From Dryococelus australis (lineage: Eukaryota; Arthropoda; Insecta; Phasmatodea; Phasmatidae), in NCBI GenBank assembly GCA_029891345.1, contig CM057002.1, positions 67,226,590 through 67,290,589 of the forward strand: a stretch of 64,000 nt of DNA, given 5' to 3'. This document shows, piece by piece, positions 45,761-49,551 of the stretch (within the stretch, counting starts at the first letter, position 1; each line of letters begins with the position of its first letter). The notes beneath the pieces are model-generated. The model made no database searches. It was given only the letters and a program-made list of their open reading frames with translations, and was not told where the DNA came from. Both the position numbers and the translations under genes were made by a program.

Positions 45761-45823
45761 TATATGAGATAGACAGTACCCATGCTGTGTGAGACCGAAT
45801 TACCTGAATGTATCGCCACGCCG

Positions 45824-45861
45824 CACAGTGTGGTCAAATCCCCAAAACGTGGCCAAAAGTC
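45824..45861 (+). repeat. Transib left terminal inverted repeat
   Basis: Heptamer CACAGTG, then TGGTCAAATCCC (12 bases), then CAAAACGTGG and CCAAAAGTC. It differs from the right repeat at four positions (8, 11, 26 and 30). Confidence 0.93.
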
Positions 45862-46465
45862 ACAAAAGTAATTTTTGTTTAGAATGATGTTAGACCTCTA
45901 ACGGTGAAGACAAATGCCCATTGCGAACAAAATCACCTCGATGTACTCGTAAATGTGTATATATTGTTCGAAATTCGAACCTAAAGTAGACACTTGCTCT
46001 GACTGTCTGTACGAACACGTAAAGTGTCGCTAAGTACGACGGGCCCTTCAGTTGGTAAATAAGGCTCAATTCACGATTACAACCAGACGTACTTAATCCT
46101 CGTTCGTTATTCGTCACACGTTAATGTCCAAAACTGTATCGTAATATACGTATTGATATTATTGAATGTATTTCAAAACATTCATTTTATATGCATTTGG
46201 TAAATTGGACGAGGCCTATAAAAAATTCCTTGCGATATCCCGCGTTCTTCCCTTTATAACGTAAAGCCTACTTCTTTGGCTACGTTCTTTCCAAAAATTA
46301 CATGCTACTTCTTGGTACCTTGCGAAATAGAGTGGATCTAGCAGAGAACTGCGCGCTGCAACCTGCTGAAAAAGCAACGAAGTTAGAGTTATCTGTAGGT
46401 GCGTGCATCGGCAGGTTATCATAGACCGCCCAGTGCTCTCTCAGCAACACTCCATACCGAGACTT

Positions 46466-46524
46466 CACCCAAGTCGTGATTAGTCGCTGTGTGTCACCCA
46501 AGTCGTGATTAGTCTCTGTGTGTA
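46466..46524. repeat. Two-copy tandem repeat in the Transib leader
   Basis: CACCCAAGTCGTGATTAGTC followed by a CTGTGTGT stretch occurs twice in a row, about 30 bp each, upstream of the transposase frame. Confidence 0.75.
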
Positions 46525-46568
46525 GTAGCAGTTGTTCTGTGTAGTGGTTTTGTGTGCGGATTACGAAG

Positions 46569-48511
46569 ATGTCATTTACAATAACATATCGACGATATCA
46601 TTAAACGCGCCTTCCCTCAAGATATGTTGGATAATGATTGGATGGCTGTAAAATTAGATTGCCGCAAAAAATACGATGCTTTCAAGAAAATGTGTGATGA
46701 CTCATGCAGAATCGAAGCAAAGTTTTGCAAGAAATACCTCACCTGGCTTGACATACCTGTTACATTTTCAATTCCAGACAAACAAACCGCAATAACGAGT
46801 CTCACTGGTAAGTAGCCAAATACCATCTTAATGATTACAACTCTGTCATATTATTTTGATTTATTTCTGTCACCCTACTAATTTTATTATTAGCAGTAAT
46901 TGGTAGACCTGAGAGGGAGAGATAGAGTTTGCTTCTTAATCGAAAAGAAGTAAAAGGCGGAAAGTGCAAGAATTACAAGAGCGTGCACCCCCGGAGGTCC
47001 TAGCTTATGCAGCGCAAATGAGCCTTCGATCAGCTGGAAAACTCTGAGTCCAAAGTTGTAAGTGAAGCAGTTTTTACGACGCCAACTCGCGCGGGCAAAA
47101 TTAATGCGGCTTACAGACATCATCAGCTAAATACCGTAACACTCTACTCTCCACTTGAAGCGCTGTCACTTATGCTAGAGACTGACCTTTCTAGAGATAA
47201 TTATAAAAATTACGGTTGGAGGCAAAGTTTAGAGGAGCGAAACTATACTCATCATATACAAAAGTTCGTAACGTAAAACAAAGAGTGTGATCCGGCAGAA
47301 GAAAGTGCGACTATCACCGAATCGAAAGCGGAAATCAAACTGCAGGCTCTCTTGGCTCTGACAGTAAAACGAATAATCGAACTGCAAGAAAATGTTTTAC
47401 TGACTCTTCCTTTTGACGTGCGTGAAAACATAATTTTACTTTCAAAATGGAGGTTTGACGGTAGTAGTGGCCATGCAGCTTACAAACAAAGAAGTAACCA
47501 GGAAGTGATGTTTGATGTAAGAGTGTTAATGACATGCCTAGTGCCGCTGCAAATGTACGGATTAAATCCAGATATCGGGAAAAAATTAATCGTGTGACAA
47601 ACTCCGCGGCCATCATCTACTCGATACTGCAGGCCAATAAAGCTGGAGTTAGCCGCCCATCTCACTTTGAAGGTGCATCACTAGTTAGCGATGACGATGA
47701 TTGGCGGGAAGACTTGCAATGCATTGATGGAAACGACCTCAGCTCAGCGTTGCAATATGTGCAGTGTGGCCCCTAAAAATGTTAACAATATAAACTTGGT
47801 TGTGAAGAAATCAAGTGATGAAAGTGTCCGTCAATATGGTCTATGAACATTACATGCATATGCACGCTTTTTAGAATGGTTCCTTCATCTGTTGTACAGA
47901 CTGCCATTTAAATCGCGGTATATAACGAAAGAGCTGAAAGAACAAGTTGAAGCAAAACAGTCGAAAATCCAAGACTTGTTCAAAAGTGAAATAGGAATTT
48001 TCATTGGTGGTGTTCTTCAAGGAAAGGGAACAACACACGATGGAAATACTGCTCGCCGTTTTTTTTTTTTTTTTGCATATGCCCATCAGTCCGCAGAAAT
48101 CACTTATTACAGGACTTATTACAGAATCTGCAACTATACTGCGCGTTCTGTCAAGTGATTTTGCAGTCGTTATTGACGCTTTCCGTGCGTATGCCTTGGA
48201 CACAGCGCATCTGTATGTGAAGGAGTACAGCTGGTATTTCATGCCAATATCACAACACAAAATTCTTATTCATGGAGCTGATGTAATATCTGTTGCATAG
48301 GAAAGGATCCCAAGAAGCCCGGTATAAGGATTTTCGACGGTTTCGGGAAAACAGGTGCCGCACAACGTTGCTAGCGGAGAGTAACAGGGAATTGCTAAAT
48401 ATGTTTTTAACTTCCTCTAACACCATTATTTCATCCGTTCGACCACCCCCTCCAAAAATGTTTCACAGCATAACACCAGCAATGCTTGCTCGCTCTTCTG
48501 AAAGAATCTGA
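46569..48511 (+). pseudogene. Transib transposase (RAG1-like DDE recombinase), decayed
   Basis: A first frame with WMAVKLDCRKKYDAFKKM at about 46,636 ends at a good splice donor, CTG|GTAAGT (46,811). An acceptor TATTATTAG lies near 46,893. The next part reads KRSKRRKVQELQERAPPEVL and, after a stop, LEALSLMLETDLSRDNYKNY. It continues TITESKAEIKLQALLALTVK and SKWRFDGSSGHAAYKQR; the Asp (47,457-47,459) sits where the family's first catalytic Asp lies. CLVPLQM follows. About 230 bases that do not resemble Transib come next, and the region expected to hold the second catalytic Asp is missing. Then YGL, stop, TLHAYARFLEWFLHLLYRLP, GTTHDGNTARRFF, a T(16) run that breaks the frame, AFRAYALDTAHLYVKEYSWY, HKILIHGADVIS, another frameshift, and QEARYKDFRRFRE. 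The Glu in that motif (48,314-48,316) aligns with the catalytic Glu of RAG1-type enzymes. Stop at 48,511. At least three frame breaks and two stops, so inactive. Confidence 0.9.
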
Positions 48512-48877
48512 TGTTGGTTAACCTCATAAACACCACTTATCATCCGTCATTTAATATGGAAGTGATGGGATAAGAACATCGGTTGAGCAACTAGATATAA
48601 TTATTTAACATGGACTATTAATGCTTGTATTCCACGTTATGTAGGCATATGTATGTATGAAGCTTTTCAGTAAATAGATTGAATTAATTATTTAATAATG
48701 TCCTCGGAAGTATTGATTACTAAGAACAGTTACACATATCCAAGTGTAATACATGTGTAAAAGAACGGAGCGGATGGAGTTGAAACGCCCCATACTAGAA
48801 CATTTCGAATAGAATGTTACTTTTAGGTCTAAGGCACAGACCTGAATGCAAATGGAACGACTTTAAAATGTGAAATA

Positions 48878-48915
48878 GACTTTTGTCCATGTTTTGGGGA
48901 TTTGGCCCCACTGTG
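48878..48915 (-). repeat. Transib right terminal inverted repeat
   Basis: On the minus strand: CACAGTG, then GGGCCAAATCCC, then CAAAACATGG and ACAAAAGTC. It is followed by the CGCCG duplication at 48,916-48,920. Confidence 0.93.
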
Positions 48916-49317
48916 CGCCGTCAGGGTTCCTTCAATCGCCACTAGTGTGGTGCGGGAATAGTAGGAAATGAAAACTCTCATTGGGGCGATGTGCCACTCT
49001 ACAATGAAGCGTGCATCACAGTGCTGACCAAAACGTCTCCAGACAGAACAGTCATTCATCGCTCAACACCACTCGCCGCCAATCAGCAAGTTGCCGTGCT
49101 GCTTGTTCCTGGCAGAATGTTGCACGTACCTGAAGACCTCGCGACGACAGATCCCGCTCTGCTAGCCGCCTGGATATGATACTGGTGGCCACAGGAGTTA
49201 CTCCAGCCGCCGTGCCATGTCCATGGATGGCACCCAGCGACGCCCCTGGAGTACTTACAGCCCGTCGCAATATGAAACGATCCTCCCTGCTGGTGGTGCG
49301 CCGGGAAAGTACGTGTA

Positions 49318-49551
49318 TACTCTCCTGTTCCCACTGCATCCAACACGTGTGTACTCTCGTGTTCCCACTGCGTCCAACACGTGTGTACCCTCCTGTTCCC
49401 ACTGCATCCAACACGTGTGTACCCTCCTGTTCCCACTGCGTCCAACACGTGTGTACCCTCCTGTTCCCACTGCGTCCAACACGTGTGTACCCTCCTGTTC
49501 CCACTGCATCCAACACGTGTGTACCCTCCTGTTCCCAATGTGTCCAACACC
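49318..49551. repeat. 34-bp minisatellite inside a transposase gene, 7 copies
   Basis: GTTCCCACTGCRTCCAACAC plus GTGTGTACCCTCCT recurs with starts at 49,327, 49,361, 49,395, 49,429, 49,463, 49,497 and 49,531. Copies differ by only one to three bases. On the minus strand it cycles through three frames (WTQWEQEGTHVL, DAVGTGGYTRVG, RSGNRRVHTC). Seven units means six extra, 204 bp, so the downstream transposase frame is kept. Confidence 0.97.

Follow-up and report, generated by a model that had tools for sequence, protein, structure and literature searches.

The best match to the transposase of the element described here is that of HzTransib from Helicoverpa zea (PDB 6pqn series), for which a hairpin cut-and-paste mechanism and the catalytic triad D126, D225 and E436 have been reported (PMC6941560). 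HzTransib measures 3518 bp and is flanked by the duplication GCTCG (PMC1852546), while its terminal inverted repeats (TIRs) are described as bearing little or no likeness to the nonamer of the V(D)J recombination signal sequence (RSS) (PMC8289069). For the insect Transibs of Kapitonov and Jurka 2005 (Drosophila Transib5, Anopheles Transib2 and N1-N3), the TIRs are given as a heptamer and a nonamer-like block, with spacers that are either symmetric (20-22 bp) or asymmetric (12/23) (PMC8355894, Figure 2 legend), and in some insect Transibs, heptamers and nonamers are stated to be identical (PMC6941560). As identical heptamers and nonamers as well as 12/23 spacers date back in the literature to Kapitonov and Jurka 2005, RSS-like Transib ends are already known, and our findings extend this known picture.

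The present element lies in a 64,000-nucleotide stretch of contig CM057002.1 of Dryococelus australis, which we refer to as the window. Its family (family A, our own label, assigned independently of Repbase and Dfam names) appears to be a new family of an established type. It resembles HzTransib in the kinship of the transposase, the catalytic positions, the 5-bp duplication and the overall size (3092 bp), but its duplication reads CGNCG; the ends are compared by the published description of the HzTransib TIRs. Set beside the families of Kapitonov and Jurka 2005, likewise by description, the genome shares with them TIRs with a heptamer and a nonamer-like block, but carries CACAGTG in all seven families examined (at both ends in six), with 12-type and 23-type ends residing in different families rather than in one element. 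Likewise, the V(D)J RSS shares the exact CACAGTG and a nonamer-like block, which is found at spacer 22 in the window family and, for certain sister families, at 23 or at 12, but the window copy matches the nonamer at only 6-7 of nine places, its ends are symmetric and no 12/23 pairing was seen. What is unusual is the setting, that is, several families in one genome that share an identical RSS heptamer, some of them with a nonamer-like block at 12 or 23. A search of titles and abstract openings, in a collection with few subscription papers and few Repbase reports, turned up no account of Transib families of the 12-type and of the 23-type occurring together.

The element, its ends and its insertion site

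The element occupies positions 45824..48915 of the window (plus strand, 3092 bp) and is delimited by its TIRs, its target site duplication, its sister copies and an empty site. The 5' TIR of 38 bp (45824..45861, plus strand) opens with the RSS heptamer CACAGTG (45824-45830), followed by a proximal A-block, CAAAAC (45843-45848), and a distal nonamer-like block, CCAAAAGTC (45853-45861), at spacer 22. The 3' TIR, also of 38 bp (48878..48915, minus strand), has its CACAGTG at 48909-48915 and its distal nonamer-like block, ACAAAAGTC, at 48878-48886, again at spacer 22 and with seven of nine letters in common with the RSS nonamer ACAAAAACC. Copies of CGCCG directly abut both ends (45819..45823 and 48916..48920). 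A 38-place pattern built from both arms matched the window twice, whereas 100 shuffles averaged 0.00 matches. CACAGTG alone is common in the window (12 matches, 8.5 expected), so what carries the evidence is the duplication together with the pairing of the two 38-bp ends. Further inside, upstream of the transposase frame, the window holds a 29-bp direct duplication (97 %) at 46465-46522.

With the window element as query, its own genome yielded at least 120 matching stretches, own copy included, and we fetched 37 regions, the window copy and 36 others with matching stretches. The consensus of 26 5' ends and that of 28 3' ends are identical over 38 bp, CACAGTGGGGCCAAATCCCCAAAACGTGGCCAAAAGTC. 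The exact heptamer CACAGTG is present in 38 of these 54 ends, one of which (L046) is probably no true end, and the runner-up, CACAATG, in three. Eighteen copies have both ends; their flanking 5-mers are identical in nine, agree at four of five places in five, at three in one, at two in two and at none in one. Among duplication lengths from 2 to 10, only 5 (nine exact) and 2 (11 exact) stand out, all others giving at most one, and the excess at 2 bp is expected from the CG...CG form of the family consensus, CGNCG. Mismatched flank pairings agreed exactly in 23 of 306 cases, which we attribute to the shared target preference. The first-pass annotation had placed 38-bp TIRs opening with the exact RSS heptamer at precisely these positions, between two copies of a GC-rich 5-bp duplication; all of this is borne out, the heptamer by a sister-copy consensus in which both ends begin with CACAGTG, and the duplication by the sister copies and the empty site described below.

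Alignments of the window copy with its sisters have a mean identity of 81 %, which indicates that the family is old. Two regions on C2 (L056 and L057, at 61.00 and 60.98 Mb) share 94.4 % identity across 3815 aligned columns, flanks included, and are probably a segmental duplication rather than two insertions. Another copy (L060, C5:214901429-214907520) is interrupted by about 2.5 kb of other sequence, which lies between positions 297 and 360 of the element.

The empty site was sought with a query in which the left and right flanks were joined by a single CGCCG. Against its own genome, this query gave 42 rows: two from the window itself, two short pieces and 38 other loci, whose alignments span the joined flanks at 72-81 % identity. 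Scoring covered 40 of the 1832 candidates, so there are at least 38 such loci. The presence of the joined flanks at these other loci implies that the element inserted into a repeat. This repeat carries a frame resembling a Tc1-type transposase, for which Pfam returned only a weak HTH_23 match below cut-off (E 0.0083). Within the minus-strand open frame that otherwise resembles this transposase, the window contains 7.1 copies of a 34-bp unit with 94 % matches (49311-49550), an array that seems to have grown within the repeat.

Transposase remains and superfamily placement

The interior of the element retains pieces of a transposase, spread over several frames of the plus strand. An exon 1 remnant at 46585..46815, with longer versions of the frame in two sister copies (L062 and L063), is probably followed by a putative GT...AG intron. 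The fragment at 47277..47597 holds the first catalytic Asp (SKWRFDG) and matches 6pqn_A with E 1.1e-11; the next, at 47679..47843, comprises a CxxC stretch, with Gly in place of the second catalytic Asp. Two further fragments cover the C-terminal half (47995..48300, interrupted by a poly-T run; 6pqn_A, E 2.1e-9) and the C-terminal part, in which the third catalytic residue, Glu, is retained (48287..48511, QEARYKDF). Just upstream of 47679..47843, the window copy lacks about 90 bp that are found in its sisters (gap at element position 1833-1835).

In a PDB search, the two matching window fragments retrieved the HzTransib transposase alone (6pqn and five more entries). The match is far stronger for a frame of 385 aa in a sister copy (L061), which aligns with the HzTransib transposase over 362 residues at E 1.2e-75, its second PDB match being a chance one (E 1.2). 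By phmmer, these three queries matched no RAG1 chain up to E 10. Pfam gave no family at cut-off for seven window fragments and six sister frames, so the superfamily placement leans on one PDB sequence. When the triad is mapped onto the rows of the window family and the other families, using a 17-residue offset to the PDB numbering that we infer from the HzTransib alignments, residues aligned to D126, D225 and E436 are present across the rows: the first Asp also occurs in frames of sister copies, the second is kept in 14 of 15 rows, the exception being the window copy, and 13 of 15 retain the Glu, which is replaced by Asp in one of the other two and falls in a gap in the last.

Given its broken frames, the missing 90 bp or so and the loss of the second catalytic Asp, the window copy is, to judge from its sequence, dead. 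On the element strand, none of the 37 regions showed an intact transposase; their longest stop-free frame has 386 aa and lacks the N-terminal part.

Transposase homology thus occurs together with CAC-heptamer TIRs and a GC-rich 5-bp duplication, as in other Transib elements, and the window element is almost certainly a cut-and-paste DNA transposon of this superfamily, as the first reading of the sequence had proposed; what we observe here are the ends with their duplication, a preference for CGNCG targets, an empty site and a transposase akin to that of HzTransib. CAC starts are found in other transposon superfamilies, and the ends could in principle have converged in a different DDE superfamily such as CACTA or hAT. 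Against the match to HzTransib in the sister copy and the 5-bp CGNCG duplication, we give this next to no credence, and the PDB matches placed none of the frames in another superfamily. Heptamer-like ends with 5-bp duplications are also reported for RAGL elements (PMC7204232), and one might suspect a transposon of the ProtoRAG type that has both a RAG1-like and a RAG2-like gene, with recognition limited to the RAG1-like part. This is highly improbable, however, given that HzTransib is the best match, that the phmmer searches found no RAG1 chain, and that every recognised fragment is on the same strand of an element of 3.1 kb, an arrangement that in our judgement leaves no space for a convergent RAG2L gene. 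No RAG2-like gene was recognised among the window frames, the sister regions having been read on the element strand and without a RAG2L profile.

For a Transib element, the known members of the family suggest how transposition would have proceeded. The transposase would be a DDE enzyme related to the RAG1 core that grips both near-identical ends, nicks each at the outer edge of CACAGTG and forms hairpins on the flanking host DNA; the freed ends would then be joined to a CGNCG target, giving rise to the 5-bp duplication. The heptamer would mark the cleavage point, and the A-block two helical turns inward (spacer 22) would most likely be a second contact of the transposase, like the nonamer for RAG1.

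Nonamer-like blocks in the window family and its relatives

The first-pass annotation had also pointed to CAAAACRTGG, 12 bases past each heptamer, as a weak echo of a nonamer at 12-RSS spacing. The position is correct, but the likeness is at chance level: at spacer 12, three of nine letters agree with ACAAAAACC at the 5' end and in the family consensus (P 0.70, 100000 shuffles) and four at the 3' end, and we reject a nonamer at 12-bp spacing for the window family. At 23, the window copy scores 4/9 at both ends, so that neither RSS spacing holds the nonamer. The better block is at spacer 22, about one helical turn further inward, where the window copy scores 6/9 (5') and 7/9 (3') and the family consensus 6/9 (P 0.057, 100000 shuffles). 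This likeness is marginal and, taken for the window family alone, not significant; a shuffled end reaches 6/9 with P 0.32 at any of the spacers 11-13 or 21-24 and with P 0.81 anywhere. A spacer of 22 fits the symmetric 20-22 bp spacers published for Transib.

The frame of L061, used as query, gave 114 genome matches, many of them at 31-49 % identity and hence from other families. We fetched 11 such loci, nine of which gave an end pair; L075 and L078 gave none, although L075 has a single end resembling family B. Candidate pairs came from one scan that required CAC and two that required CA and heptamers agreeing at five of seven places, and were ranked by a repeat and duplication score. Sixteen of the 18 ends open with CACAGTG, the remaining two with CATAGTG and CACGGTG, and the duplication agrees at four or five of five places in seven of the nine elements (L071 and L073 fail). 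Together with the window family, this makes seven families, A to G, of which six have CACAGTG at both ends of some element and family F at one end. None of the nine elements was recognised as a 12/23 asymmetric one.

For the spacing of the blocks, we took both ends of one element per family, 14 ends in total, which come from related families and hence do not represent 14 independent tests. Their nonamer likeness peaks at spacers 22-23, with a summed score of 82 against 48.8 expected, reached in none of 5000 shuffles, while at spacer 12 the sum is 39 against 40.9 expected. Single-end P values range from 0.004 to 0.10 in families B, C and D, save one end of a C copy (L070; 0.28), and are 0.09 and 0.013 for A, 0.40 and 0.06 for E, and 0.05 and 0.03 for F; E and F score only 4-6/9, and at one D end a stronger match (8/9) lies at spacer 9. 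The 12-bp spacing is found not in the window family but in family G, where both copies carry ACAAAACCT exactly 12 bp into the 5' end (7/9; P 0.008 and 0.016). The 3' ends of this family have a weaker block (4/9 and 5/9; P 0.28 and 0.09), and no block was found at spacers 22-23. In a tree of read-through fragments, the families form two groups, one of A, C and D and the other of B, E and F, which G joins (support 0.87). As the 22-23 spacing is present in both large groups, it is probably the older state, from which the 12-bp form of family G, about one helical turn apart, would be derived.

Genome-wide end patterns and the origin of the RSS likeness

The pattern CGNCG-CACAGTG-N-CAAAA has 380 matches in the genome and 19 in a reversed control, with some ends counted twice and copies of one family not being independent. 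Two alternative heptamers showed no clear excess, neither CACAATG (34 vs 27 in the control) nor CACGGTG (13 vs 22), which indicates that the genome favours CACAGTG within this class of ends. Among the first 100 of the 380 matches, the spacer is 23 in 40, 22 in 18, 11 in 18 and 12 in five. Average-linkage clustering of 83 ends with readable letters gave 27 clusters at distance 0.35 and 18 at 0.45, and the modal spacer is 22 or 23 in 14 and eight of these, respectively; single linkage joined 82 of the 83 and was dropped. One cluster of 12 ends, on C1 and C2, reads CGACG-CACAGTG-TGTACAACCTTG-CAAAA or close to it; its constant CGACG flank is unlike that of a transposon, and it is probably a larger repeat that holds a Transib-like end rather than a set of independent insertions.

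The longer block CAAAACC gives 31 matches and none in the control, with spacers of 23 in 21, of 12 in seven and of 22, 24 and 28 in one each. Judging from the fetched loci and from matches to the unfiltered pattern below, most of these ends can apparently be assigned to C, D and G, and the number of independent families among them is therefore small. The exact heptamer with the exact ACAAAAACC occurs three times (control 0), at spacers 12, 24 and 23, the spacer-12 match being a G-type and the spacer-24 match a C-type end. When CGNCG is no longer required, CACAGTG-N-ACAAAACCY matches 172 times (control 114); the first 100 peak at spacers 12 (19) and 23 (12), the background being about three, with much of the peak at 12 due to repeats of unproven Transib origin. 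Two repeats whose Transib status is unproven, CACAGTG-TGTACTCGCCAC-ACAAAACCC and CACAGTG-GTTACAGTTTTC-ACAAAACCC, have the exact layout of a 12-bp RSS.

How much of the likeness beyond the heptamer reflects kinship with the RSS is a matter of balance, and we lean slightly towards convergence alone: any dimeric transposase might contact A-rich blocks one or two helical turns in, and A-tracts resemble ACAAAAACC. This reading agrees with the chance-level and marginal scores of the window family at 12 and 22 and the ease with which shuffled ends reach them, with the relatedness of the families behind the 14 ends, with the low scores of E and F and the spacer-9 match in D, and with the lack of nonamer likeness described for HzTransib. 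It is less easily reconciled with the spacer of exactly 12 or 23 in 28 of the 31 CAAAACC matches, or with the three exact matches to heptamer and nonamer. Alternatively, the Transib families of this genome might form two end classes, in which an exact CACAGTG is followed by the block after precisely 12 or precisely 23 bp, the two RSS spacings, in different families and not as 12/23 pairs, with A-blocks of the window family near both (11 and 22). We put this forward as a tentative and rather unlikely proposal.

If the families do fall into these two classes, the lengths of 12 and 23, or one turn and two turns of the helix, would be an ancient feature of the way Transib ends are recognised. Uniting ends of the two classes could then give rise to a 12/23 pair before any RAG2. 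Transib ends rank among the best living clues to the origin of the RSS, and this genome provides natural end pairs for asking whether Transib transposition has spacing rules. Should ends of the 12-class and the 23-class prove not to be interchangeable, the 12/23 rule would have a transposon precursor.
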